Shown: positions 51,582-64,000 of the stretch, one piece after another
Layout of the letters: every line of letters begins with the position of its first letter
How positions within the stretch are numbered: position 1 is the stretch's first letter
Assembly: GCA_001657395.1 (NCBI GenBank)
Contig: LYSY01000002.1
Coordinates: 744,001-808,000 of the forward strand
DNA from: Rhodospirillales bacterium BBD 1991-14
GTDB lineage: Bacteria > Pseudomonadota > Alphaproteobacteria > Kiloniellales > Kiloniellaceae
DNA length: 64,000 bases
Reading direction: 5' to 3'
Made by a program: the position numbers and the translations under genes
Notes under the pieces: generated by a model
Told to the model about the DNA's origin: nothing
What the model saw: only the letters and a program-made list of their open reading frames with translations
Database searches by the model: none

Positions 51582-52240
51582 CAGCCGCGGCCGGGGTTCT
51601 CAGGCTCGCGCCGTTGCCGCCTCTGGGGGCGGATCTGCGGGGCCCCGGGGTGGCGGGGGCGCCGGAGCCACCGGGGCCGCCGGGGCCTGTAACGCTGCGG
51701 CGGTCAGGTCATCTCGGAAGGGATAGGCCACCGTCCTGAGAGCGCCCCTGAGAGCGCCCCTGAGAGCGCCCCTGGGAGCCCTCTGGGGGCGCCAAGTGGC
51801 GGAAACAGCTACATTTGCGCATCGTTCTTGCGGCGAAGGCTAGTCAATTGGCTGCGATGCGTCTAAAAGCAACAAGAGATTAACTTGCCGGATATCTTTG
51901 GGTATGTTGTCGCACCGAGCAGCCCAAAGTATGGAAAGGCCAACAAGAGGGATCTTTTGAGCGGGAAATATCGAGGAGTGGGGGGTTTCCTGTCTTTAAA
52001 TGTGCGTTATCGATTGATGAGTTCGGTAAACGCCCCAAATGGTAGCCTGCTGCCGATCTGCGGCGGCGGCCCATTTATTATGCCTGTCTAATATGCGCCG
52101 CCCTTCTCGCCTTAAGTAATGCGTTGATTGCTTGCAAATGCTCCTGAAGAGGGTGGCCCGACTCCTGATACCTTTGTTTTCCGTAATCCACCCAAATCCA
52201 TGCAACGAAATCGGAAGGAACCCGATTCAGGGATCTGTTG
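51582..52240. other. Intergenic region before the sphingolipid genes
   Basis: About 660 bases without a supported gene. The first part is very GC-rich and holds a 12-base tandem repeat (51735-51782). From about 51840 to 52240 the composition is clearly more AT-rich than the neighbouring genes, which fits promoter DNA for the acyl-AMP ligase operon or a remnant of inserted DNA. Short frames here (for example 51885-52091 on plus) show no recognisable protein features. Confidence 0.6.
51735..51782. repeat. 12-base tandem repeat, about four copies
   Basis: The unit CCTGAGAGCGCC occurs three times in perfect succession (51735-51770), followed by a diverged fourth copy beginning CCTGGGAGCC. It lies in non-coding DNA downstream of pncB. 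Copy number may vary between strains by replication slippage. Confidence 0.85.
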
Positions 52241-54025
52241 ATGATGAATGTTACGGCGTCTATCAATGACGATTTGCCTTTTGTGGTGGCAGAATTTGAC
52301 ACGCTGGTTCAAGGACTAGACTACGCAGCCAGGGGGAACACCGGATACAACTTCTTCTCAGGCAGAGGGGAGGTCGCGCACGTCCTGAGCTACAGGGAGT
52401 TGCGCGAGCGTGCCATCGTCCTTGCACGGCGTTTGGACAAACTGGGCCTTCAGCGCGGTACGCGGGTCGCAATCATCGCAGAGACAGTCCCTGAGTTTCC
52501 GGTCTTCTTTTTCGCCTGTCAGTACTCCGGCCTGATCCCGGTGCCGCTCCCGCTGCCGATCCATCTGGGCAGCCACGAAGCCTACGTCGAACGTCTGCGG
52601 TCCATGATTGCCCGCGCCGGCGCGGAGATCGCCGTTGGCCCCCCCGAACTGATGTCCTTCCTCACGGAAGCCGGCGGCGGCCTGAAGATGATCGGGACGC
52701 CTGCCGATTATGCCGCGCTGCCGGAAACCGGCGGTGATCTGCGGCCCTTTGAAGCCGATGAGCCCTGTTACATCCAATATTCCTCCGGCAGCACCAGTCT
52801 GCCGCGGGGGGTCTTCATTTCCCAACGTGCGATCACCAGCAACGCCCGTGCAATCGGCCAGCACGGCCTCAAGCTGCGCAGCGGAGACCGCAGTGCGTCC
52901 TGGCTGCCGCTGTATCACGACATGGGCTTGGTCGGCTTCTGCCTGACGCCGATGTTGAGCCAGGTGACCGTCGACTACCTGGCAACGAAAAGTTTCGCTC
53001 TGCGCCCGCTGACCTGGTTGAAGCTGATGTCGCGCTACGGCGGCACCATTTCGTTCAGCCCGACCTTCGGGTACGAACTCTGTGTGCGCCGGGGCCTCAA
53101 CGGTTCGGCCAAGGAAATCGACCTCGGGCGCTGGCGGGTTGCCGGCATCGGCGGCGATATGGTCCGCGCCGATATTCTTCACAGTTTCGCCGAAACCTTC
53201 GGGGTTGCCGGGTTTTCGCCCAAGGCTTTCCTGCCGAGCTACGGCCTTGCCGAATCGACGCTGGCGGTGGCCTTTGCGCCTCTGGACACCGGTATCGAGA
53301 TCGACCGGGTCGACCAGGGCCGCTATGCGGGCAACGGGATCGTTACGCCGGTCAAGCGCGGACCGAACGGGTCGAGCCGCAGCGCCCGATCGTTCGTCAG
53401 CTGCGGGACCGCGCTGCCGGATCATGCGGTGGAAATCCGCAGCGAGAAGAACGACAAGCTGCCCGACCATCACGTCGGTCGGATTGTGGTCCGCGGCCCC
53501 AGCGTCATGGATGGCTACTTCGATGACCCGGCGGCGACCGAAGCCGTGAAGACCGAGGACGGCTGGCTGGACACGGGTGACCTGGGCTACATGTCCGGGG
53601 GCAACCTGATCGTGACCGGCCGGCGCAAGGATCTTGTGATCCTGAACGGCCGCAACATCTGGCCGCAGGACGTCGAGTGGGCGGTCGAGGCCTTGGCCGA
53701 CGTGCGCGCAGGCGACGTAGCCTGCTTCTCGGTCATCGAGGGTGACGTCGGCGAGCAGATGGTGGTGATCCTGCAATGCCGCCTGCACGACCCCGTGGCG
53801 CGCGAGCAGCTGCGCAAGCAGGCCGCAGCGACGGTCCGGACGACCTGCGGCGCCGATTGCCGGGTGGTGCTGGTGCCGCCCAAGACCTTGAAGTTCACGT
53901 CCTCCGGCAAGCTCAGCCGCTCTGCGGTCCGCCAGGACTACCTGACCGGCGAAATCGCTGATGTAAGCCATTCGATCAAACAGGTCTCGTCCGCCGTGTC
54001 CGCATCGTCGCAGTCGGGCGATTGA
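52241..54025 (+). CDS. Fatty acyl-AMP ligase / acyl-ACP synthetase of the sphingolipid cluster
   Basis: A 594-residue adenylate-forming enzyme. It has the AMP-binding P-loop YIQYSSGSTSLPRGVFISQ, LPLYHDMGLVGFCL, the A5 motif SYGLAESTLAV, the A7 Asp motif DGWLDTGDLGY, and GRRKDLVILNGRNIWPQDVEWAVE. This resembles fatty acyl-AMP ligases (FadD32 type) that load an acyl carrier protein rather than CoA. It leads the reductase, ACP and serine palmitoyltransferase genes; in Caulobacter a similar enzyme loads the ACP used for sphingolipids. ATG 52241 has AGGGA seven bases upstream. Confidence 0.9.
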   Translation: MMNVTASINDDLPFVVAEFDTLVQGLDYAARGNTGYNFFSGRGEVAHVLSYRELRERAIVLARRLDKLGLQRGTRVAIIAETVPEFPVFFFACQYSGLIPVPLPLPIHLGSHEAYVERLRSMIARAGAEIAVGPPELMSFLTEAGGGLKMIGTPADYAALPETGGDLRPFEADEPCYIQYSSGSTSLPRGVFISQRAITSNARAIGQHGLKLRSGDRSASWLPLYHDMGLVGFCLTPMLSQVTVDYLATKSFALRPLTWLKLMSRYGGTISFSPTFGYELCVRRGLNGSAKEIDLGRWRVAGIGGDMVRADILHSFAETFGVAGFSPKAFLPSYGLAESTLAVAFAPLDTGIEIDRVDQGRYAGNGIVTPVKRGPNGSSRSARSFVSCGTALPDHAVEIRSEKNDKLPDHHVGRIVVRGPSVMDGYFDDPAATEAVKTEDGWLDTGDLGYMSGGNLIVTGRRKDLVILNGRNIWPQDVEWAVEALADVRAGDVACFSVIEGDVGEQMVVILQCRLHDPVAREQLRKQAAATVRTTCGADCRVVLVPPKTLKFTSSGKLSRSAVRQDYLTGEIADVSHSIKQVSSAVSASSQSGD

Positions 54026-54125: not shown

Positions 54126-55115
54126 ATGACTGAGACCACGCCGGCGCCCGGCTGTGTCGCCCTGACCGGTGCCACCGGCTTCGTCGGTGGTCATATTCTC
54201 CGGCAATTGACAGCCGCCGGCTGGCACGTCAGGGCGCTGACCCGGCGGCAGGGTGGGCTGGGCGAACCGGCGCCCGGCGTGACGCCGGTGACAGGATCGC
54301 TCGAATCGCGGGATGCCTTGGCGGCGCTGGTCGAGGATGCCGACGTTGTGGTGCATTGCGCCGGCCTTGTGGCGGCCCGCCGCTCCAGTGCCTTCGATCA
54401 GGTGAACCGTGGCGGTACGGCCCGCCTGGTCGAGGCTGCCGCCGCCCGGCCGGTGCCCCCCCGGTTCCTGCTCGTCTCGTCCCTGGCGGCGCGCGAGCCA
54501 CAGGTTTCCCCCTACGCCGTCAGCAAGTACCGGGGCGAGGAAGCCCTGCGCAAAGACGGGACCGGGCTGTTCTGGCAGGTTCTGCGGCCGCCGGTCGTCT
54601 ACGGCCCCGGGGATCGCGCCACGCTGGACCTTTTTCGGCAGATTTCCAAGGGTTTCGCGGTGATTCCGCGGACACGCGGGCGGTTTTCGATGATCTATGT
54701 CGAGGACCTTGCCGCCGCTGTCGTGGCGCTGCTGGGGCCCCCGGTACAGAGCGCATCGGGATCGCACACCACGGTTCCACCTGCCTCGGTCCTGGAGATC
54801 GATGACGGCAAGGTCAACGGCTACAGCTGGGCGGAGGTTATTGCGGCGGCCGAGGGCCATCTGGGGCGCAGGGTTCGCAGTTTTGCGGTGCCCCTGGCCG
54901 TGCAGCGCCTCGCGGCGGCGGTCAGCGTCGGCGCTGCTCTGGTGACGGGCAAGGCCCCGGTGCTGTCCCAGGGCAAGGTCAACGAGATCGCGCATCCGGA
55001 CTGGGTCTGCCGGACCAATCGCCTCAACGAGCTTCCGTTCTGGCAGCCGTCCGTCGGCTTCGAGGAGGGTTTGTCAAAGACCCTCGCATGGTATAAGGCT
55101 GCGGGCTGGCTCTAG
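54126..55115 (+). CDS. cerR: NAD-dependent epimerase/dehydratase-type ceramide reductase
   Basis: A 329-residue extended short-chain dehydrogenase. The nucleotide fold is ALTGATGFVGGHILRQL (residues 12-28), the mid-section is DVVVHCAGLVAARRSSAFDQVNRGGT, and the catalytic YxxxK is in SPYAVSKYRGEEAL. RPPVVYGPGDRATLDLFRQISKGF is typical of the family. By synteny with Caulobacter, where an epimerase-like CerR between the acyl-ACP synthetase and the ACP reduces the 3-oxo group of the ceramide intermediate, the same role is inferred. It is 100 bases after the ligase gene and on the same strand. Confidence 0.85.
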   Translation: MTETTPAPGCVALTGATGFVGGHILRQLTAAGWHVRALTRRQGGLGEPAPGVTPVTGSLESRDALAALVEDADVVVHCAGLVAARRSSAFDQVNRGGTARLVEAAAARPVPPRFLLVSSLAAREPQVSPYAVSKYRGEEALRKDGTGLFWQVLRPPVVYGPGDRATLDLFRQISKGFAVIPRTRGRFSMIYVEDLAAAVVALLGPPVQSASGSHTTVPPASVLEIDDGKVNGYSWAEVIAAAEGHLGRRVRSFAVPLAVQRLAAAVSVGAALVTGKAPVLSQGKVNEIAHPDWVCRTNRLNELPFWQPSVGFEEGLSKTLAWYKAAGWL

Positions 55116-55232
55116 GGGACTGTTTCAAGGGCCTGCTTCAAGGTTGGGGAAAGCATTGGGAGTGCGGTCGGACCGGTGAGCAGTGAATCTCAGGCTCTTG
55201 TTCAGGGTCAAACCAAGCAACGAGGTAAACAC

Positions 55233-55493
55233 ATGCAATGGACTGCCGATGAGGTCCATGCGGAGGTGGTTCGGCTGCTCGAGCCGTTTAACCCGCAGTC
55301 CGTCGATCTGCAGGCGGAGACAGACCTTGCCACCGATCTCGGCATGGACTCCGTCGCTGCCATGAATATGGTCATGGAGGTCGAGGACCGCTTTGATATC
55401 GACATCCCCATCAGCCTGCTGCCGGACGTGAAGACGCTGCAGGATCTGGTCGATGCAGTGCTGGCCGAACTGAGCAAGAAGCCGGCCCAATGA
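55233..55493 (+). CDS. Acyl carrier protein of the sphingolipid cluster
   Basis: An 86-residue ACP starting MQWTADEVHAEVVRLLEPF, with the phosphopantetheine-attachment Ser40 in DLGMDSVAAMNMVMEVED. ATG 55233 has GAGG seven bases upstream; the open frame runs further upstream without ACP homology. The stop overlaps the serine palmitoyltransferase start (ATGA), so both are translated together. It is a dedicated ACP, distinct from housekeeping AcpP, and probably delivers the acyl chain to the adjacent Spt. Confidence 0.93.
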   Translation: MQWTADEVHAEVVRLLEPFNPQSVDLQAETDLATDLGMDSVAAMNMVMEVEDRFDIDIPISLLPDVKTLQDLVDAVLAELSKKPAQ

Positions 55494-56704
55494 GTCTGCT
55501 CGACAAATACGACAAGGTCTCCGTGCGCCACCAGCGTCTTCTGTCGTTTGGCCGGGACCCCTTCAACATCTGCATGGATCGGATCGTTTCGGCCACCGAA
55601 GCCGTGATCAACGGCCGGGATGTCATTCTGGTCGGCACGAACAACTATCTGGGCCTGACGTTCGATCCCGACTGCGTCGCCGCGACGGCCGATGCCGTGA
55701 CGCGCGAAGGCACCGGGACGACCGGTTCGCGCATTGCCAACGGCACCTATGCCAGTCATCGCGGTCTCGAGCAGGCGATTGCCGGTTTTCTGGGCCGCCG
55801 TGCGGCGATGGTGTTTCCGACCGGCTATCAGGCCAACCTCGGGATCCTCGCAGGCCTGGCCGGCCCCGAAGACACGATTCTGCTGGATGCAGATTCGCAC
55901 GCCAGCATCTATGACGGCTGCCGCCTGAGCGGTGCCAAGCTCGTCCGTTTCCGGCACAGCTCGCCCGAGGACCTGGACAAACGTCTGTCCCGGCTGAGCG
56001 GAGGAACGGGCGGCACCCTGGTGGTCGTGGAGGGCATCTACAGCATGCTCGGCGATCAGGCGCCGCTGCGCGAGTTTGCCGACGTGAAGCGCCGCCACGG
56101 TGTCGAACTGCTGGTCGACGAAGCGCATTCTCTGGGTGTCTTCGGCGACCGCGGCCGTGGTCTCGTTGAGTCCGCCGGGGTCGAAGAGGACGTCGATTAC
56201 GTTGTCGGCACTTTCAGCAAGAGCCTGGGCGCAGTCGGCGGATTTGGCGCTTCCGATCATCCGGCCTTCGAGCGTCTGCGCTATACGAGCCGGCCGTACA
56301 TGTTCACGGCCTCCTCCTCGCCGTCCACCATCGCCACGGCAATGGCGGCGCTCGACAAGATCCAATCGCGCCCGGAACTGCGCGAGCAGCTCTGGCGCAA
56401 TGCCCGCACCCTCTACGACGGGCTGAAGGACCTCGGTTTCACCATCTGTGCCGAGACGAGTGCGATCATCGCCCTGAAGATGCCGAGCGAAGCGGCGGCG
56501 GTCTACATGTGGAACGCCCTGATGGAAGCCGGAGTCTACGTGAACCTCGCGCTGCCGCCGGGCACGCCGGACGGCAGCTCGCTGCTGCGCTGCAGTCTCT
56601 CTGCGGCGCACACACCCGCTCAGGTCCAGCGCATCTGCGAGATCTTCGGCACCTGCCTGGAAGCATTGAAGGCCTGGCAGGTCACCCAGTCGGCTGCCGA
56701 GTAG
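55490..56704 (+). CDS. spt: Serine palmitoyltransferase
   Basis: A 404-residue PLP-dependent alpha-oxoamine synthase. The PLP lysine is K244 in VGTFSKSLGAVGGFG, the aspartate/histidine pair is in LLVDEAHSLGVFG, and GTNNYLGLTFDP and GTGTTGSRIANGTYASH are conserved. It could be 8-amino-7-oxononanoate synthase or another family member, but coupling to a private ACP, acyl-ACP synthetase and CerR-like reductase argues for serine palmitoyltransferase, the first enzyme of sphingolipid synthesis. It converges on the lipid-kinase/TAM41 operon, ten bases away on the other strand. Confidence 0.9.
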   Translation: MSLLDKYDKVSVRHQRLLSFGRDPFNICMDRIVSATEAVINGRDVILVGTNNYLGLTFDPDCVAATADAVTREGTGTTGSRIANGTYASHRGLEQAIAGFLGRRAAMVFPTGYQANLGILAGLAGPEDTILLDADSHASIYDGCRLSGAKLVRFRHSSPEDLDKRLSRLSGGTGGTLVVVEGIYSMLGDQAPLREFADVKRRHGVELLVDEAHSLGVFGDRGRGLVESAGVEEDVDYVVGTFSKSLGAVGGFGASDHPAFERLRYTSRPYMFTASSSPSTIATAMAALDKIQSRPELREQLWRNARTLYDGLKDLGFTICAETSAIIALKMPSEAAAVYMWNALMEAGVYVNLALPPGTPDGSSLLRCSLSAAHTPAQVQRICEIFGTCLEALKAWQVTQSAAE

Positions 56705-56713
56705 CCGCCTGAT

Positions 56714-57676
56714 CTACCGGAAGGCGCCGCGGCGATAGAGCTGCCAGAACAGAAGCGGGGCCGCCAGCAGAGGGTGGCGGCGCTGCCAGGGGGTCAGGGT
56801 CACCGCCACGCCTGAGTGCCGCTCGATCTTCCATGCCAGATAGTCCGGGCCATCGGCGAAGGTAAAGGCAGCCTTCATCAGCCGCAGAATCGAGAGCAGC
56901 TTGCCCTGGACGCGGCGCAGCCACCACCTGCTTCGGGGCGGGCCGCCCGGTGACGGGCAGGCGTAGCGCGTCGGACCCGCCGGCGCGCCGTCCTGGCCGG
57001 CGACCGCAGGCACCTTCAGCGCCACAAGGGCGGCCTTACCCACGGCCTCGAAGTATCGGCGATTGGCATCGTAGAGATCCTTGACCCGGTCCGGACCTTC
57101 GGCCCGCAACTCCGTGCGATAGGTTTCGCGGAACACGGCCGTCCACAGATCCTCGACCGTGAAGTCACTCTGCATCAGGGCAAGGCCCTCCGTCACCGTG
57201 TGCAGGACCGAGCCGGCGAGGGCCGCTGTCACCTCTGCCCTGACGTCGGCGTTGCGGCTGTAGACGAGGCGGCAAGACTGCGCAAAGCGGGCCCAGAGAT
57301 AGGGATGGAACCAGCGCCCCCCGGCCCCGGCGGCAAAGTCGGCAAGCGAGCAGACGGCGTACTTGGCGCGCACGACGGCGCCCTCCGCATCCCGCGTTTC
57401 CAGGTAATAGACGTTTGGTGGCAGCGCCTGGTTGGCCAGCGCGCTCAGACCGCTGCGGTGAGCGCCAGTATAGCTGTCGACCAGAAGATAGAGGTCCGCA
57501 ATCCGGCCTTCGAGGGTTTCGCTGCCAAGACAGGAGCCATAGAAGAGCGTTGCGGCAACAGCGCCATGCCGCTGTTTTGCGGCTTCCGCGATCGCGGCGA
57601 CAGACCGGGCGACAGACTGGGCGACGGGGCGCTGAACCTCTGCCTGCAGCAGTGCCTCAAGCTCTCCGCCGCTCAT
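56714..57676 (-). CDS. TAM41-like phosphatidate/ceramide-phosphate cytidylyltransferase (predicted)
   Basis: A 320-residue protein that by eye resembles mitochondrial TAM41 (CDP-diacylglycerol synthase). Similar features are the nucleotidyltransferase-type FYGSCLG with acidic strand ADLYLLVD (residues 46-67), NVYYLE, AKYAVCSLADF, WARFAQSCRLVYS, TELRAEGPDRVKDLYDANRRYFE and a C-terminal KLLSILRLMKAAFTFADGPDYLAWKIERHSG amphipathic helix. TAM41 makes CDP-diacylglycerol from phosphatidate. Beside a lipid kinase and a CDP-alcohol phosphotransferase in a sphingolipid cluster, this protein may use ceramide-1-phosphate and CTP. The gene starts three bases after the kinase gene. The fold call is good; the substrate is inferred. 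Confidence 0.75.
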   Translation of the reverse strand: MSGGELEALLQAEVQRPVAQSVARSVAAIAEAAKQRHGAVAATLFYGSCLGSETLEGRIADLYLLVDSYTGAHRSGLSALANQALPPNVYYLETRDAEGAVVRAKYAVCSLADFAAGAGGRWFHPYLWARFAQSCRLVYSRNADVRAEVTAALAGSVLHTVTEGLALMQSDFTVEDLWTAVFRETYRTELRAEGPDRVKDLYDANRRYFEAVGKAALVALKVPAVAGQDGAPAGPTRYACPSPGGPPRSRWWLRRVQGKLLSILRLMKAAFTFADGPDYLAWKIERHSGVAVTLTPWQRRHPLLAAPLLFWQLYRRGAFR

Positions 57677-57679
57677 CGC

Positions 57680-58717
57680 TCAAATCCTCACGAAGCGGAT
57701 CTGCTGGTCGGCGGCAAGCAGGACGGGGCACCCGGGTTCGGGCTCGAAGAGCTCGCCGTCCAGGGTGAAGGGGCAGTCCATGGCAAGCGAGACCCGGTTG
57801 GCCCTCCGGCTGAGGTAGCTTGTTGCGGGCAGCTTGCGGTCTTCGCCGCCATAAAGCACACGCCAGGCATAGCGCAGGAGACGCTCGGGCGGATAGGCGA
57901 TGCTCGTGAAGCGGAGCTGTCCGTCGCCGCCGTCCCAGAACGGCCGGCTGCCCAGCACAAGACGGTCCAGCGTGGTCGCGAGGATCACCAGGCTGGTGAG
58001 GTGTTCGGCTGGCTGGTTGTCGAAGGTGACGTCGATCCTGTCGCCGGAAAAGACCTTCCTGTTGGGACCGCTCCTGCCTGGACCGCCCCTGCCTAGACCG
58101 GCGCTGGCCTCGGCATCGCCTTGTTGGGCCCCGCGGCCGCGCAGCAGCCAGTCGGCGAGGAGGCCCGCCAGGGTAACGGCCGCGGCGGTATCGGCCTTGA
58201 TCTTGTAGGGATGGACTTTGGACCGGCAGGCGATGATGGCGCGATAGATGGCCGCGCCGCCAAAGAACATGCCGTATTGCGGGGGGCTGCCGCGCGCATT
58301 CTCAAGCCTGAGGATCTGCCGTTTCGCGGTGGCCCGGGCGATCTCCCCTTCGTCCGCGCTCTGCAGCAGCCTGCCGAGTTTTGCCAGACCCGTGCTCATG
58401 CTTCCACGCAGGCCGACGTCACCGGCGATCATGTTGGTCATGCCGCAGGGCAGGACTGCCAGGCGCGGCTGCTGCTCGTAGGGGCGCCCACCGAAGAGCG
58501 CGGTCAGCACTGCCTGGATGGTGCCGTCGCCCCCCGCAACGGCCACGGTATCGATCTCCCTGCGGGCGAAGTCGGCCAGGATCTCGGGGATGTCGGCGAC
58601 GGTCTCCAACACCGCGTGACGGGCGCCGGGCAGTCCGGCAACTGCCGAGTCCAGCTTCTCGATGCCCCGCTTGTTCTTCTGGCTGCGCGGATTGGTGATG
58701 ACGCCAAGGCTGCCCAT
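57680..58717 (-). CDS. Diacylglycerol/ceramide kinase-family lipid kinase
   Basis: A 345-residue protein of the DAGK-catalytic family. Its N-terminus is MGSLGVITNPRSQKNKRG, the nucleotide-binding GGDGT lies at residues 62-66, and the C-terminal beta domain is FTLDGELFEPEPGCPVLLAADQQIRFVRI. A ceramide kinase of this family (CpgB) lies beside spt in Caulobacter, so ceramide is the likely substrate here. A Gly/Pro/Arg linker (GLGRGGPGRSGPNRK) coincides with a 15-base tandem repeat. The ATG lies two bases after the phosphotransferase stop and the stop lies three bases before the TAM41-like gene: a tight operon. Confidence 0.9.
   Translation of the reverse strand: MGSLGVITNPRSQKNKRGIEKLDSAVAGLPGARHAVLETVADIPEILADFARREIDTVAVAGGDGTIQAVLTALFGGRPYEQQPRLAVLPCGMTNMIAGDVGLRGSMSTGLAKLGRLLQSADEGEIARATAKRQILRLENARGSPPQYGMFFGGAAIYRAIIACRSKVHPYKIKADTAAAVTLAGLLADWLLRGRGAQQGDAEASAGLGRGGPGRSGPNRKVFSGDRIDVTFDNQPAEHLTSLVILATTLDRLVLGSRPFWDGGDGQLRFTSIAYPPERLLRYAWRVLYGGEDRKLPATSYLSRRANRVSLAMDCPFTLDGELFEPEPGCPVLLAADQQIRFVRI
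58065..58109. repeat. 15-base tandem repeat within the lipid kinase gene
   Basis: Two close copies (GGACCGCTCCTGCCT, GGACCGCCCCTGCCT) and a diverged third (AGACCGGCGCTGGCC) lie end to end. The period of 15 keeps the frame and encodes a five-residue Gly/Pro/Arg-rich repeat in a surface linker. Confidence 0.8.
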
Positions 58718-58719
58718 GG

Positions 58720-59961
58720 TCAGCGCGGCTCGGTCATCCAGGATCTCAGGCGCCCTCTGCCGCGTGCCGCCGCCATCGCCTGAAAGAGCTGCAGGACGTG
58801 CAGCAGCAGGCAGGCTGCAGTCCAGACGGCAACGGCAATGAGGCCGAGATCGGGACGTCCCAGTGCCGCGCCGAGTGTGAGCAGCACGAGGTTCGGGTTG
58901 CGCCGGGCGGTGACCAGCCGAAACCAGGTGTCGACGGGCCGCCAGATGTGGATTTCCAGGCCGAGCCGCCAGATGGCGATGCCCTCGATGACCCGCTGCA
59001 GGACGTAGCCCGCGACAATCACGCTGAGCGCGAGGGTCAGGGCGCCGCTGTCCAGTGCATGGGCACCGTGCTGCAGGCCCAGCCCCCAGGCGACATACCA
59101 GAAGGGCGGATGTATCAGATCGATGGAATGGTCGAAGACATTTCCGAACTTCGACGAGCGCAGCGTGATGCGGGCTAGCTTGCCGTCGACGGTGTCGAGA
59201 AAGGTCATCAGCCAGGCGGCCAGCAATCCCGGCAGCCAGTTGCCCTCCCAGAACCAGTAGAAGGCCGCGATGACGGCGACGAGGCTGACCGCGGTGACCT
59301 GGTTGGGGGAGATGTCGAGGCGTGCGCAAAGCCTGGTGACATAGAACGCGGGACGCGGCCAGAGCCATTTGGTGACGAGATCCGTGGCGCCCTTGTAGGT
59401 GCCCATGAACATGCGCCACTCGGTTGCCGCGAGCGTTTTGCGGTCAGGCAGCAGGGCGTAGGGTTCCTCGCGCTTGCGCAGGGCCTCCCAATACGACGCG
59501 CCCAGCTCGGCACTGCGGACCGGCCACAGTCCCTCGGGAACCTGAGCCCCCTGCCCGGACTGCAGAACCGCCGCGCCGGCCTCTGCCAGTCCTGCCGGCG
59601 CATGCACCGCCAGCGGTATCCCGGCATGGTCGCCGTTGGAAAGCAGCACGGCGCCGGGGGCATTCAGCAAAGCCTTAACCAGCGGCGTGTCGATCACCGC
59701 ATCGGCACGGACGAGGATGACTGCCTGGTTCTCTCCGGCAAGCTCGGATTCGGGGATGAAACAGTCGACTCCCGCTGCAGCAAAACTGCGCCGCAGCCGG
59801 TCTTCCGGGGTCGCGAACCAGATCTCAAGCGCGCCTTTGCCGATCAGGCAGGCCGTTCGCGGAGCCTCGGGCCCCTGGCCCTGGCCGGTGGAGGTCTGCT
59901 CGGCGGAGCTATCCTGGGCGGAGATGTTTTGGGATGTCCCTGTTTCGGTTTCGGCGCGCAC
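58720..59961 (-). CDS. CDP-alcohol phosphotransferase with degenerate N-terminal nucleotidyltransferase-like domain
   Basis: The C-terminal half has the CDP-alcohol phosphotransferase signature D-x2-D-G-x2-A-R-x8-G-x3-D-x3-D in FLDTVDGKLARITLRSSKFG and FDHSID (about residues 256-281), with about six helices around it. The N-terminal 180 residues resemble a MobA/sugar-nucleotidyltransferase fold that has lost its glycine-rich loop. The very N-terminus is Ser/Thr/Gln-rich. GTG 59961 with GAGAG upstream was taken as the start; a TTG at 60048 would add 29 residues. It would join a phospho-headgroup to CDP-diacylglycerol or, in this setting, CDP-ceramide; the acceptor is unknown. Confidence 0.87.
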   Translation of the reverse strand: MRAETETGTSQNISAQDSSAEQTSTGQGQGPEAPRTACLIGKGALEIWFATPEDRLRRSFAAAGVDCFIPESELAGENQAVILVRADAVIDTPLVKALLNAPGAVLLSNGDHAGIPLAVHAPAGLAEAGAAVLQSGQGAQVPEGLWPVRSAELGASYWEALRKREEPYALLPDRKTLAATEWRMFMGTYKGATDLVTKWLWPRPAFYVTRLCARLDISPNQVTAVSLVAVIAAFYWFWEGNWLPGLLAAWLMTFLDTVDGKLARITLRSSKFGNVFDHSIDLIHPPFWYVAWGLGLQHGAHALDSGALTLALSVIVAGYVLQRVIEGIAIWRLGLEIHIWRPVDTWFRLVTARRNPNLVLLTLGAALGRPDLGLIAVAVWTAACLLLHVLQLFQAMAAARGRGRLRSWMTEPR

Positions 59962-60150: not shown

Positions 60151-61236
60151 CTAGGTGGGGCGGTGCTTCAGCTCGTGCCAATACGCGACGCTGGCGGCGA
60201 CCGCGCCGAAGATCGCCAGGGGCGCGATGCTGGCAAGCAGCGGCGGCAGCAGTCCGACCTCACCCATCGCAAGGGTAATCCCGTTGAATATGAAAAAGGA
60301 GAAACCGACAGCGATGCCGGCGATGAGGAGAAGGCCCAGCCGCCCGGAGCGCTGCGACTGCTGGGCAAGGAACACGCTGAGGCAGAGCATCAGGAACGGA
60401 ATCAGGCAGTCTGCCAGCTTGGCATAGTGCCAGGTCTGGTAGAGGTGGGGGGCCCATGTGCTGCCGCCCCTGCCGTCGACGAAGCGCTGCGTCTCGTAGA
60501 AAGAAAGGTCCCTTGGGTGCGCCAGCAGATGCTGCAGGTTGGCGGCCTGAAGATCGATCGGCCAGGTCCGCTCGGCTTCATAGGTCGGCCGGCCCCCTGC
60601 CGCCGGAACCGTCGTGACGTCGAAGAGCTGCCACAGCCCATCGCGGTACTCGGCGCGGCGCACGTCAACCCGTGCCAGCAGTCTGCCCTCTGCGCTGCGC
60701 TTGAAAAGCGTAAAGTCGCGCAGCCCTTCGGCGTCGATGTTCTCGGCGGGAATCCGGACGATGTCGTTGCCGACGTGGATCCAGGTCATGCCGTTGCCGT
60801 CCTGCAGCGTCGGCCGGCTGTCGTCGCTGGCGACGCCCCATTCCTGAAGCGCCTGGACACTGGGTGGCACGAGCTCGTTGTCGACAACGAACTGCAGGCC
60901 GCCGAGCACGATGGCCAGAGGAATCAAGCGCCCCACCAGACCGAACTGCGAGACGCCGGAGTTCCAGATCGCCGTCAGCTCTCCGTGCCGGATGAGGAGG
61001 GTCAGGGTGAGGAGGCCGGCCAGCAGCGTCGCGATCTTTATCAGATCCGAAACGATGGTTGGCGAACGCAGCATTACGTAGCGAACCAGCGCCGCCGTTC
61101 CGCCGTCGTCATGGGCCATGACGCCCCTGGCATTGGCCATCAGATCGAGGCCCATCAGAAACGCCCCCATGCCGAACAGCAGGAGGGCGAATCGCGCGAC
61201 GAACAGCCGCGTCACATATCGGGTGAGAACCCTCAT
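60151..61236 (-). CDS. LptG-like permease (YjgP/YjgQ family)
   Basis: A 361-residue protein with the LptF/LptG layout: membrane helices near the N-terminus (MRVLTRYVTRLFVARFALLLFGMGAFLMGLDL), a periplasmic jellyroll-like domain (about residues 130-260) and three C-terminal helices. LptFG pairs extract lipopolysaccharide from the inner membrane with the LptB ATPase. The start overlaps the LptF-like stop (ATGA). Because it sits beside sphingolipid genes, it may be either the housekeeping LptG or a second copy dedicated to sphingolipid export. Confidence 0.88.
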   Translation of the reverse strand: MRVLTRYVTRLFVARFALLLFGMGAFLMGLDLMANARGVMAHDDGGTAALVRYVMLRSPTIVSDLIKIATLLAGLLTLTLLIRHGELTAIWNSGVSQFGLVGRLIPLAIVLGGLQFVVDNELVPPSVQALQEWGVASDDSRPTLQDGNGMTWIHVGNDIVRIPAENIDAEGLRDFTLFKRSAEGRLLARVDVRRAEYRDGLWQLFDVTTVPAAGGRPTYEAERTWPIDLQAANLQHLLAHPRDLSFYETQRFVDGRGGSTWAPHLYQTWHYAKLADCLIPFLMLCLSVFLAQQSQRSGRLGLLLIAGIAVGFSFFIFNGITLAMGEVGLLPPLLASIAPLAIFGAVAASVAYWHELKHRPT

Positions 61237-62597
61237 TCCGTAGACGCCTGGCCCGTAGACGCCTGGCCCGTAGACGCCTGGCCCGTAGACGCCTGGCGCT
61301 TCGCGCCATCGCCGGGCCGCATGGCCTGCAGGGTCGCCTTGACCAGCTCGGCCGGCGACGGCCAGGCGGCCCCCCGCGTCACCACGTAAGCGCGCCGATA
61401 AAACAGGAAAACGCTGACAGCGACGATCAGCAGAAAGGGCAACCATTGTCCGACGAGCGCGCTCACATGGCCGACCGAGGACATCGATTTGCCGATGCTG
61501 AGTGCCTGGTTGTAGACGATCAGAAGGAACAGACCCGCCGCGATGCCGTAACCCTGGTGGCTTCTTCGCGGCCCGATGGCAAGGGCAACCGCGAGAAAGG
61601 GCAGAAACGTCAGCGAGAACGTGCGCACCAGCCGGTCGTGAAACTCGGCCAGCATCTGATCGCTGGTTACGCCGGGCGGAGGTGTCGCGCGGTATTGCCA
61701 GAGCTCCAGCAAGGTCAGCTCGCGTTCGTCCTCGCCGCGTGGGCGAAAGGCCTCCTGACCGACCAGATTGGTTGGCAGTTGCAGACGGCCGAAGTTCAAG
61801 ACCCCGACCTTCCGGCCCTCTTCCCGGCCCTCTTCTGCGGTGCTTTCCGCTGTACCGCGTTCTGCTGTATCGCGTGCTACCGTATCGCGTTCTACCGCAT
61901 CGCTTCCTGCCGCGTCGCGGTCCGTCCCGGCGTCCGGGCCTGCCGGCGGACCGGCCTCCAGGCGCACGCCGTTCGACAGAACAAGGGTTGAGCCGCCGGT
62001 AGCGTCGGAGATCACCAGCCGACCGCGCTCCGCGGTCATGGTGATGCTGTTTCCGTCTTCGTCTTCTTCGTAAAGGAAGACGCCGCTAAACGCGCGGCTG
62101 CCGCGGCGTACGCCATTGGCCATGAAGGTGGAGCCGTTCACCTCCATGAAGGTGCGTGGCTGCAGGTAGGTGTTCACGGCCTGCTCCGCGACCTCGTGAA
62201 TCAGGGCGCGGTAGGTATAGCGGGCATAGGGCTGGCCGAGGTTGAAGTTCACTGCCGAGACGGCGGTGAGAACCAGTGCCAGGATCAACACCGGCCGCAG
62301 AAGCTGCGGCAGACCGATGCCGGCCGATCCAAGGGCATCGAGCTCCCGCGCGTGGTGCAGCCGGCTGAACGCCAGAAACACGCCGAGAAAAAAGGCCGCC
62401 GGAAGCGCCAGCGCCATATAGTGCGGGACGAGAAAGGCCAGCATCTGCAGCAGCACGGTCAGGCCGCCGTCGGAATCCAGCACCATGTCGAGCAGGCGCA
62501 ACATCCGTTCGGTCAACAGCACGAGAAGCGCGATGCCGACGGTCACTACCAGCGGCATCATGGTCTGCCTCAGAAGATAGCTGCTGATCGTCGACAC
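61233..62597 (-). CDS. LptF-like permease with repeat-expanded regions
   Basis: A 454-residue partner of the LptG-like protein. The N-terminus ISSYLLRQTMMPLVVTVGIALLVLLTERMLRLLD and the central FFLGVFLAFSRLHHARELDALGSAGIG are typical of LptF. The periplasmic domain contains an unusual acidic Ala/Asp/Arg/Thr-rich insert (about residues 216-260), encoded in part by 15-base repeats. The C-terminus ends in four QAST(G/E) repeats encoded by another 15-base array. The start GTG 62597 was chosen because the amphipathic first helix follows it. No LptB-type ATPase gene is in the window. Confidence 0.88.
   Translation of the reverse strand: MSTISSYLLRQTMMPLVVTVGIALLVLLTERMLRLLDMVLDSDGGLTVLLQMLAFLVPHYMALALPAAFFLGVFLAFSRLHHARELDALGSAGIGLPQLLRPVLILALVLTAVSAVNFNLGQPYARYTYRALIHEVAEQAVNTYLQPRTFMEVNGSTFMANGVRRGSRAFSGVFLYEEDEDGNSITMTAERGRLVISDATGGSTLVLSNGVRLEAGPPAGPDAGTDRDAAGSDAVERDTVARDTAERGTAESTAEEGREEGRKVGVLNFGRLQLPTNLVGQEAFRPRGEDERELTLLELWQYRATPPPGVTSDQMLAEFHDRLVRTFSLTFLPFLAVALAIGPRRSHQGYGIAAGLFLLIVYNQALSIGKSMSSVGHVSALVGQWLPFLLIVAVSVFLFYRRAYVVTRGAAWPSPAELVKATLQAMRPGDGAKRQASTGQASTGQASTGQASTE
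61238..61297. repeat. Four 15-base tandem repeats at the 3' end of the LptF-like gene
   Basis: The unit CCGTAGACGCCTGGC is repeated four times without change. On the minus strand it encodes the C-terminal QASTG pentapeptides of the LptF-like protein and lies just before the LptG-like start. Exact repetition suggests recent slippage and possible copy-number variation. Confidence 0.92.
61858..61917. repeat. Four diverged 15-base repeats in the LptF-like periplasmic insert
   Basis: Consecutive units CGTTCTGCTGTATCG, CGTGCTACCGTATCG, CGTTCTACCGCATCG and CTTCCTGCCGCGTCG share a 15-base period and encode a charged five-residue repeat. The divergence implies an older expansion than the C-terminal array. 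Confidence 0.8.
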
Positions 62598-62657: not shown

Positions 62658-63131
62658 CTAGGCTGCCGGGGCCGGCCAGGCCGCCTTCACCGCCTCGCCG
62701 AGGCGTGCCAGCGCGGCTGCGTCCGGCGTGACCCCGGAAGACAGGTCGGGGGCGGCGGGCCAACCGGCATCCGGATAGACCGTTCCGGCGAACTCCTGGC
62801 CGCTGTCATAGCGCGGAAGCACGTGAAAGTGGACGTCCGGATCGACCATCATCAGCATCAGATAGTTGATCTTCTGATAGGGGCGGAAGGCGCGCAGTCC
62901 CGTTTCGATGTCCTTGACGGCCTGTTGAAGCTCGCCATAGGCCTCTGCGCTGATCTCGCTGAACGCCTGGGCCTCGTCCTTGCAGGCCAGCACCAGGGCG
63001 CCCAGGGTGGCCTGATGGGGACGCAGCAGCACCACCCAGTGCCCGTACTCCCGGATCAGCGAACCGGGATAGCCGAACTTTTGCATGGTCGCGTTGGGCC
63101 GGAGGGTTTCGGGTCCGCTTGACAAACTCAC
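62658..63131 (-). CDS. HIT family protein
   Basis: A 157-residue histidine-triad protein. The core is YGHWVVLLRPHQATLGALVLACKDEAQAFSEI and the HIT motif region is VDPDVHFHVLPRYD, where the usual first His of HxHxHxx is replaced by Asp. HIT enzymes hydrolyse or transfer nucleotidyl groups (Ap4A hydrolase or AMP-lysine type), so a role in nucleotide clean-up is plausible. The start is GTG 63131. It lies 60 bases upstream of the LptF-like gene on the same strand and may be in the same operon. Confidence 0.85.
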   Translation of the reverse strand: MSLSSGPETLRPNATMQKFGYPGSLIREYGHWVVLLRPHQATLGALVLACKDEAQAFSEISAEAYGELQQAVKDIETGLRAFRPYQKINYLMLMMVDPDVHFHVLPRYDSGQEFAGTVYPDAGWPAAPDLSSGVTPDAAALARLGEAVKAAWPAPAA

Positions 63132-63269
63132 GACAGGATCATACCTCGCTGGGTCTGAGGGGCCGGACGGCGGCTGCTTTGCATGGGGATGTTCCCGCCA
63201 TCGCAGCCGTACTAGTGAAGGCCGCCGGGAGCCTGGCGGCGTCTTGCTGCCGGACGATAAGGAGATGTG

Positions 63270-63779
63270 ATGATCATTTCCCGGATCTCAACCTTGAAAC
63301 GGATCAGCACAAGCTTGGCCGCATTCCTGGGCCTGGGCGTGCTTGCCCTGGGTCTCGCCCGGGGCGACGCGATCGCTGCCGGGCAGTCGGCCTGCACGGC
63401 GGAGGAGGGCGCGCAGATTGAGGTCAAAGTTGAAAATGTGCGCAGTTCCAAAGGGTTGATAACAGCAGTTTTGTACAGCGATGACCCGGAGGGCTTCCTG
63501 AAGCGGGGGCAGCGGCTTGACCGCATAAGGGTCGAGGCCAAAGAGGGCGAGACGCTGCTGTGCCTTAAGGCCCCGGCCGAGGGCCGCTACACGGTCGCAC
63601 TCTATCACGATGAGAACGGGAACAAAGAGTTCGATCGGAATTTCCTCGGCATTCCGTCCGAAGGCTATGGCTTCTCAAACAACCCGGGGTTCCGCTTCGG
63701 CAAGCCGGAGCAGGAGGAAACCCTTTTTTCGGTCAACGGAAGCACGACCAAGGTGAGCATCTCTGTGCTCTATCTTTAG
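63270..63779 (+). CDS. Exported DUF2141 protein
   Basis: A 169-residue protein with a signal peptide (basic start, hydrophobic AAFLGLGVLALGLARG, AXA-type site near AIAAGQ). Its DUF2141 beta-sandwich contains IEVKVENVRSSKGLITAVLYSDDPEGFL, GRYTVALYHDENGNKEFDRNFLGIPSEGYGFSNNP. The acidic DENGNKEFD loop may bind calcium. AAGGAG lies five bases before ATG 63270. DUF2141 genes are common near lipid genes in alphaproteobacteria; the function is unknown. Confidence 0.9.
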   Translation: MIISRISTLKRISTSLAAFLGLGVLALGLARGDAIAAGQSACTAEEGAQIEVKVENVRSSKGLITAVLYSDDPEGFLKRGQRLDRIRVEAKEGETLLCLKAPAEGRYTVALYHDENGNKEFDRNFLGIPSEGYGFSNNPGFRFGKPEQEETLFSVNGSTTKVSISVLYL

Positions 63780-63829
63780 GTCCTGGCTTTAGGTCCCGGC
63801 TTTAGGTCCTGGCAGGCTTTAGGCCCTTA
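63774..63829. repeat. Short tandem repeats between DUF2141 and the metallophosphatase gene
   Basis: Four copies of a CTTTAGG(T/C)CC-type element begin at 63774, 63787, 63800 and 63817, the first two 13 bases long and exact except for one base. The DUF2141 stop codon (TAG) falls in the first copy. The array may disturb or replace a terminator between the converging genes. Confidence 0.75.
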
Positions 63830-64000
63830 CAGGCGGTAGCGCCGGGCCTCGGAGAACCGCCCGCCGGCCGGGTCGAAGCCGCGGGCCGTTACATCGATGC
63901 GCCAGCGCTTCCCGTCCTGCTCAATGGTGTAGAGCTGGTAGTGCGCCTGCGGCTTCTTGCCGCTGCTGGCCGCCGAGGCTGAAGGCACGCCCAGAACCGG
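63827..64000 (-). CDS. C-terminal end of a probable metallophosphatase (cut by window edge)
   Basis: A minus-strand frame enters at base 64000 and ends with TAA at 63827-63829, giving 57 residues ending HYQLYTIEQDGKRWRIDVTARGFDPAGGRFSEARRYRL. This resembles the C-terminal strand pair of calcineurin-like metallophosphoesterases, but the catalytic part is outside the window, so the call is tentative. It converges on the DUF2141 gene. Confidence 0.5.
   Translation of the reverse strand, partial: PVLGVPSASAASSGKKPQAHYQLYTIEQDGKRWRIDVTARGFDPAGGRFSEARRYRL

Follow-up and report, generated by a model that had tools for sequence, protein, structure and literature searches.

By what reaction does ceramide receive its first phosphoglycerate in bacteria? 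The step is an open one in the formation of ceramide phosphoglycerate (CPG), which helps Caulobacter to survive when lipopolysaccharide is absent. The question is raised again by a 64,000-nucleotide stretch of the genome of Rhodospirillales bacterium BBD 1991-14 (GCA_001657395.1, contig LYSY01000002.1, positions 744,001 to 808,000; hereafter the window), in which three open reading frames (ORFs) lie on the minus strand at 58720-59961, 57680-58717 and 56714-57676, with intergenic gaps of only 2 and 3 bases. A preliminary description took these for genes of a CDP-alcohol phosphotransferase (CPT), a DAGK-family kinase and a Tam41-like cytidylyltransferase, and proposed that the three enzymes convert ceramide through ceramide-1-phosphate and CDP-ceramide to a phospho-headgroup ceramide. 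The tight packing was borne out by the sequence, and the kinase and CPT assignments by Pfam (Table 1). Our analysis leaves the CDP-ceramide step evenly balanced, and indicates that the last arrow, in which the CPT consumes CDP-ceramide, is probably wrong.

The operon very probably belongs to a ceramide diphosphoglycerate cluster

Its domains and gene content mark the operon almost certainly as cpgA-cpgB-cpgC of a ceramide (di)phosphoglycerate cluster; the names cpgABC reportedly come from Zik et al. 2022. The cpgB-like kinase and the cpgC-like nucleotidyltransferase genes are adjacent, the pair for the second phosphoglycerate is present (a cpgA-like gene in the window, a cpgD-like gene at C15:808884-809657), and the spt, acp, cerR, acyl-ACP synthetase and bCerS domains occur together, spt and the acyl-AMP ligase (NF047599 and NF006624) scoring over curated cut-offs and the other three being recognized by domain and place. 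The sphingolipid setting (spt, ACP, CerR-like, acyl-ACP synthetase) noticed earlier is thereby confirmed. The suggested link to Caulobacter cpgABC also held, as the same domain set is found with cpgD-, CC_1153- and bCerS-like genes right past the window and LptF/LptG-like genes inside it, none of which entered the preliminary description. The cluster for ceramide diphosphoglycerate (CPG2) appears complete here, in that each of the eleven genes listed as taking part in CPG2 formation seems to have a counterpart. The best PDB sequence match of the cpgD-like protein is LicC CTP:phosphocholine cytidylyltransferase (2e-11); that of the CC_1153-like protein (C15:809640-810587) is the hypothetical protein TTHA0179 (2dpw, E 7.9e-19), next to a weak CofC match (3.7e-4), a likeness also reported for CC_1153 (PMC11324152).

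In Caulobacter, according to PMC11324152, CC_1159, CC_1160 and CC_1161 are cpgA, cpgB and cpgC and encode a CPT, a ceramide kinase and a CDP-diacylglycerol (CDP-DAG)-synthase-like protein. CC_1160 and CC_1161 are required for CPG but CC_1159 is not. CPG2 formation depends on CC_1159, CC_1153 and CC_1152; CPG goes up when CC_1153 or CC_1152 is lost, and the CC_1161 mutant lacks both CPG and CPG2. In vitro, the CpgB protein of Caulobacter acts as a ceramide kinase (PMC10331486), and CpgD from the same organism has been shown to be a CTP:phosphoglycerate cytidylyltransferase (PMC12275187). The latter paper calls the CpgC step unidentified.

CpgC is predicted to have the Tam41 fold

CpgC of the window (P0002, the product of 56714-57676) was modelled by AlphaFold2 on an alignment of 30 CpgC sequences, one per genome (A1; four further genomes, whose matches were weakest or split and which had obtained no locus, were excluded), with a predicted local distance difference test (pLDDT) score of 93.8. 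When the model was compared with the PDB by Foldseek, all five rows at E<=0.001 were Tam41 (1.3e-9 to 1.8e-7), namely the mitochondrial 6ig4 and 6ig2 and the bacterial 7ecd. VIA-align superposed it on 7ecd with Z 19.0 (226 residues, 2.9 A) and on 6ig4 and 6ig2 with Z 17.5 and 17.1, and the next row that was not Tam41 had Z 8.7. By sequence, the family search of P0002 gave no relevant match (in Pfam only Rpf1_C, E 0.73; in NCBIfam none at E<=1), and Pfam Tam41_Mmp37 matched neither P0002 (E<=1) nor anything in the genome of the window (E<=10). The same Pfam model matched 2 of the 30 aligned members at E<=1, P0002 not among them; the better of the two, L006 (E 9.8e-7, 28.8 bits against a cut-off of 24), is the sole member over the cut-off. 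The PDB sequence search with P0002 returned only SAKe proteins (E 5e-6 to 0.022), which we took as chance because the matches involve one short Gly/Pro-rich stretch and single copies have i-Evalues of at least 86 (two alignments shown). Since the 30-row CpgC profile found a single nucleotidyltransferase among the PDB sequences (E 0.034) and L006 found no relevant match there, the kinship with Tam41 rests on the fold and on the Pfam match of L006.

When 249 genomes of the phylum were searched with Pfam Tam41, the single match lay below the cut-off, so that no bacterial Tam41 was obtained for the alignment; the active-site residues of CpgC were therefore compared with the published description only. 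Y46, G47, D61, K105, R130, E189, R191 and E193 are kept in all 30 members, and at the next site of the nucleotidyltransferase motif after the invariant D61 28 of the 30 have Tyr. This fits the pattern stated for Tam41, in which only a single acidic residue is left of the three that the nucleotidyltransferase fold has (PMC11646218). The conserved C-terminal part of CpgC, W251-P302, lies mostly beyond the range aligned with Tam41, and since the yeast Tam41 crystals lack 74 C-terminal residues (PMC7018664), it gives no demonstrated difference between the two. The TAM41 likeness of the preliminary description is thus sound as a predicted fold, although the Pfam family misses P0002.

The genome of the window holds two CTP_transf_1 genes, which we take to be of the CdsA family, so that CpgC is not needed for CDP-DAG. 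This makes it very unlikely that CpgC is an ordinary Tam41 that converts phosphatidate to CDP-DAG and is merely located in the cluster. A bacterial Tam41 with such activity has been reported (Kimura 2022, as cited in PMC11646218), but the loss of CPG and CPG2 in the CC_1161 mutant and the constant company of cpgB, shown next, also speak against such a role here.

cpgB accompanies cpgC, and cpgA tracks cpgD

When 289 genomes of the class were searched, a cpgC homologue was found at E<=1e-3 in 34; eight genomes without cpgC were hand-picked as controls. cpgB occurs in all 34 (best E between 1.2e-230 and 4.9e-12; in G123, G186 and G227 it is on a different contig from cpgC) and was not found at E<=1e-5 in any of the eight controls. 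Likewise, a CC_1153-like gene is present in 33 of the 34, all except G071 (82% complete), and was not found at E<=1e-3 in the controls. cpgA, on the other hand, occurs in 20 of the 34 (E at most 9.7e-76; the remaining 14 reach no better than 2.1e-5 and the controls no better than 3.8e-6, in G014), as does cpgD (E at most 1.4e-60; the remaining 14 reach no better than 2.3e-9), and the two sets are the same 20 genomes (Fisher 7e-10, not corrected for relatedness). On the CpgC tree of 30 genomes this pair changes at least seven times. The gene distribution thus splits a core (cpgB, cpgC and the CC_1153-like gene) from an add-on (cpgA and cpgD). We also counted genes in loci, using the 37 that are at least 20 kb long among the best 80 of 575 confirmed stretches, themselves from a list of at least 595; absence in these counts is local only. 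cpgA and cpgD were both present in 19, cpgA alone in 3, cpgD alone in 0 and neither in 15, and cpgB was present in 36. Far outside Alphaproteobacteria, too, homologues of cpgB and cpgC are neighbours, on contigs that carry the labels Desulfobacterota, Calditrichota, Nitrospirota, Rokubacteria and Gammaproteobacteria (for example L046, L051, L053, L094 and L101).

CpgA most likely uses CDP-glycerate

In CpgA of the window (P0003, 58720..59961), DxxDGxxARx8GxxxDxxxD, which we take to be the CDP-alcohol phosphotransferase motif, is intact at residues 256-281, and its fixed residues are invariant in all 35 rows of a CpgA alignment (A2). The AlphaFold2 model (pLDDT 88.2) fits AF2299 (4o6n) with Z 24.5 and IPCT-DIPPS (4mnd) with Z 22.2, over 318 residues each, within CpgA residues 34-398. 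On the IPCT-DIPPS family model NF041135, CpgD corresponds to the N-terminal part (2.6e-14) and CpgA to the C-terminal part (4.6e-7), both matches being far under the cut-off. Because cpgA tracks cpgD exactly, and because of the Caulobacter genetics and the IPCT-DIPPS likeness, the substrate of CpgA is most likely CDP-glycerate rather than CDP-ceramide. We hold the use of CDP-glycerate with good confidence, and it has also been proposed in PMC12275187.

The preliminary description instead made the CDP-ceramide from CpgC the direct substrate of CpgA, with the three enzymes together producing the phospho-headgroup ceramide. The arrangement of the genes in one operon agrees with this, and so does the order cpgA-cpgB-cpgC-cpgA' in the Nitrospirales loci L036 and L037. 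In addition, PIP synthase and AF2299 entries come first when PDB sequences are searched with the CpgA profile, with 4mnd lower (1.2e-4), and the sequences closest to the CPT domain of CpgA are those of archaetidylinositol-phosphate and PIP synthases, enzymes that use CDP-lipids. However, cpgA is absent from 14 of the 34 cpgC genomes, CC_1159 is dispensable for CPG in Caulobacter, and the fold of CpgA fits that of AF2299 and IPCT-DIPPS, so we regard a direct use of CDP-ceramide by CpgA as unlikely. We conclude that the CPT is not an obligate partner of CpgC.

Candidates for the first transferase

CPT-family genes were searched for in 28 genomes: 13 of the 14 cpgC genomes without cpgA (G071 was left out), G000, six with cpgA and the eight controls. 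Six of the 13, and likewise two of the eight controls, have exactly two CPT matches at E<=0.001, which rules against a dedicated second CPT as the general CPG synthase. In five of these six the pair is a PssA-like protein and PgsA (the PssA match of G256 is under the cut-off of its model; the sixth genome is G159), which leaves no CPT match for a dedicated CPG-forming enzyme. The user of CDP-ceramide in these five, if CDP-ceramide exists, would therefore be a housekeeping CPT or another kind of enzyme. Six CPT matches were found in the genome of the window, so that another CPT could serve there.

Some lineages carry a second CpgA-like CPT paralogue (L081:2477-3682(-), L107:3150-4373(-), L036:11196-12419(+), L037:11116-12354(+); also in G037, G263, G165, G186, G163 and G093, with 31-37% identity to P0003 in these G genomes). 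It adjoins lptG or the fatty acid hydroxylase gene (L081, L107, L119, L126) or comes after cpgC (L036, L037), and is a candidate for the CPG-forming step in its lineages. Elsewhere in the genome of the window (G000), a CPT match (C8:80859-82105, 9.2e-8) lies beside a weak cpgD-like nucleotidyltransferase (1.8e-14), perhaps as another CDP-alcohol pathway.

A different possibility is that CpgC itself joins ceramide-1-phosphate (or ceramide) to activated glycerate that a second nucleotidyltransferase, for instance the CC_1153-like protein, would supply, without any CDP-ceramide. Published schemes leave room for this, a legend in PMC13228409 giving the CpgC reaction as 'via an unidentified mechanism', and it would suit both the near-constant CC_1153-like gene and the five genomes that have no CPT other than PssA and PgsA. 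Nevertheless, CPG rises rather than falls in Caulobacter when CC_1153 or CC_1152 is lost, and the Tam41 fold with its one-acid pattern favours nucleotidyl transfer to a lipid phosphate; we consider this alternative possible but doubtful.

A proposed pathway through CDP-ceramide

In the pathway that we put forward as the best explanation, CpgB would phosphorylate ceramide, as shown in Caulobacter, and CpgC, with its predicted Tam41 fold, would convert CTP and ceramide-1-phosphate to CDP-ceramide. A transferase, possibly a housekeeping CPT (PgsA or PssA), would then swap the CMP of CDP-ceramide for glycerate or phosphoglycerate to give CPG. CpgD would make CDP-glycerate, as shown in Caulobacter, from which CpgA, as an AF2299/DIPPS-type CPT, would move phosphoglycerate to CPG to yield CPG2, as in the published model, and the LptF/LptG-like proteins may assist its transport to the outer membrane, as suggested in print. 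As a whole, this pathway could as readily prove wrong as right, and the same holds for its central step, the formation of CDP-ceramide by CpgC. More tentatively, CpgC might be a CTP:ceramide-1-phosphate cytidylyltransferase that makes the first CDP-activated sphingolipid and, in genomes without cpgA, feeds the housekeeping PgsA or PssA; one small enzyme would then open the headgroup machinery of glycerophospholipids to ceramide.

Several points weigh against the pathway. The predicted fold of CpgC alone does not tell its substrate, and both the CDP-lipid-using relatives of CpgA and the genomes with PssA-like and PgsA proteins only, described above, are awkward for it. Lower-scoring CpgD-like nucleotidyltransferases occur in all 42 genomes searched, with matches up to 3.4e-14 in the control G014, and three of the loci of at least 20 kb (L035, L077 and L107) carry cpgA without cpgD near by. 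cpgA and cpgD change together in every one of four independent pairs on well-supported branches of the CpgC tree, but a sign test on four pairs is too small to reach 0.05. Finally, the pathway does not account for the near-constancy of the CC_1153-like gene, whose Caulobacter counterpart is dispensable for CPG.

The preliminary description also held that a CDP-activated ceramide step had not been described. We found no demonstration of CDP-ceramide formation in the literature searched ('CDP-ceramide' and other phrasings), but the idea itself is in print: Olea-Ozuna 2024 (PMC11324152) suggested, without demonstration, that CC_1161/CpgC might make a nucleoside diphosphate-activated ceramide. Since that paper words it as '(NDP)-activated ceramide', the missing string 'CDP-ceramide' is no proof of novelty. 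The kind of cluster is already known, and the CDP-ceramide step is a plausible, already proposed one whose chances are about even. A sphingolipid activated with CDP would represent a lipid intermediate of a new type. For CpgC, the Tam41 fold leads to the prediction of a definite reaction, and the distribution of the genes points to the enzymes to pair with CDP-ceramide.

Gene content of the locus

The features are listed in Table 1; the genes at and past the window end are labelled by their domains and location rather than by aligning them with Caulobacter proteins. The end of cpgC (56714) and that of the convergent spt (56704) are separated by 9 bases. The true start of the LptG-like gene is more internal than its ORF, because the family match starts at residue 74. 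The representative of the u13 family matches Pfam HIT at 5.1e-4, slightly under the cut-off. At 61238-61297, where lptF ends and lptG starts, four perfect 15-base tandem copies correspond to repeated STGQA-type units in the LptF tail, and short tandem repeats of 13 and 17 bases lie at 63774-63834, between the DUF2141 and phosphoesterase genes.

Table 1 Features of the cpg locus. Positions are those of the window; genome coordinates are written C15:n; "ORF limits" marks open-frame ends.
Feature	Position	Strand	Basis
aasR-like acyl-ACP synthetase / fatty acyl-AMP ligase	52238..54025	+	NF006624 2.2e-230, 766 bits (cut-off 600)
SDR, CerR-like by cluster place	54126..55115	+	Pfam Epimerase 1.5e-24
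Acyl carrier protein, acpR-like	55176..55493 (ORF limits; start possibly more internal)	+	Pfam PP-binding 1.7e-11
spt, serine palmitoyltransferase, convergent with cpgC	55490..56704	+	NF047599 2e-188, 626 bits (cut-off 500)
cpgC-like Tam41-fold nucleotidyltransferase, proposed CTP:ceramide-1-phosphate cytidylyltransferase	56714..57676	-	Predicted structure, Foldseek, VIA-align
cpgB-like DAGK-family kinase, expected ceramide kinase	57680..58717	-	Pfam DAGK_cat 2.1e-14; GGDGT at residue 62
cpgA-like, cytidylyltransferase-like N-terminal domain + CPT domain	58720..59961	-	Pfam CDP-OH_P_transf 2.9e-10
LptG-like permease	60151..61446 (ORF limits)	-	TIGR04408 8.4e-60, 202 bits, under cut-off 240
LptF-like permease	61233..62597	-	TIGR04407 1.9e-67, 227.5 bits, slightly under cut-off 230
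Small HIT-like protein, family u13 of related clusters	62658..63131	-	49% identity over 140 residues to u13 representative
DUF2141-like protein	63267..63779	+	phmmer 2e-23 to a DUF2141 protein
Metallophosphoesterase 3' part, CC_1158-like by domain	63827..64000, ORF on to C15:808852	-	phmmer to Pfam-named representative
cpgD-like, past window end	C15:808884-809657 (ORF limits)	+	phmmer to Pfam-named representative
CC_1153-like NTP_transf_3, past window end	C15:809640-810587 (ORF limits)	-	phmmer to Pfam-named representative
bCerS-like GNAT, past window end	C15:810452-811606 (ORF limits)	-	phmmer to Pfam-named representative
Fatty acid hydroxylase, past window end	C15:811705-812469 (ORF limits)	-	phmmer to Pfam-named representative

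Comparison with known systems

The closest known counterpart is the CPG2 cluster of Caulobacter crescentus, CC_1152-CC_1168 (cpgD being ccna_01210, CC_1152 by numbering). According to its published description, it shares with the window the domains of the CPT, the kinase and the CDP-DAG-synthase-like protein, the nearby spt, ACP, cerR and acyl-ACP synthetase genes, and the cpgD-like, CofC-like, bCerS-like, phosphoesterase and LptF/LptG-like genes; this likeness is one of domains and of gene order as described in the published text, not of aligned proteins, which also counts against the proposed pathway. Caulobacter CpgB and the kinase of the window are similarly alike by domain, not by alignment, in belonging to the DAGK family, in the GGDG motif and in having the same partners. 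With the Tam41/TAMM41 CDP-DAG synthases (6ig4, 6ig2, 7ecd), CpgC shares the predicted fold over 219-226 residues and the single acidic residue kept in the nucleotidyltransferase core; it differs in its low identity to them (14-17%), in being missed by the Pfam Tam41 family and in its co-occurrence with cpgB in 34 of 34 genomes. AF2299 and the bifunctional archaeal IPCT-DIPPS (4o6n, 4mnd) resemble CpgA in combining a cytidylyltransferase-like N-terminal domain with a CPT domain, and CpgD resembles the IPCT part. Unlike in IPCT-DIPPS, the two activities of the cpg cluster lie on separate genes, and the CDP-alcohol expected there is CDP-glycerate.

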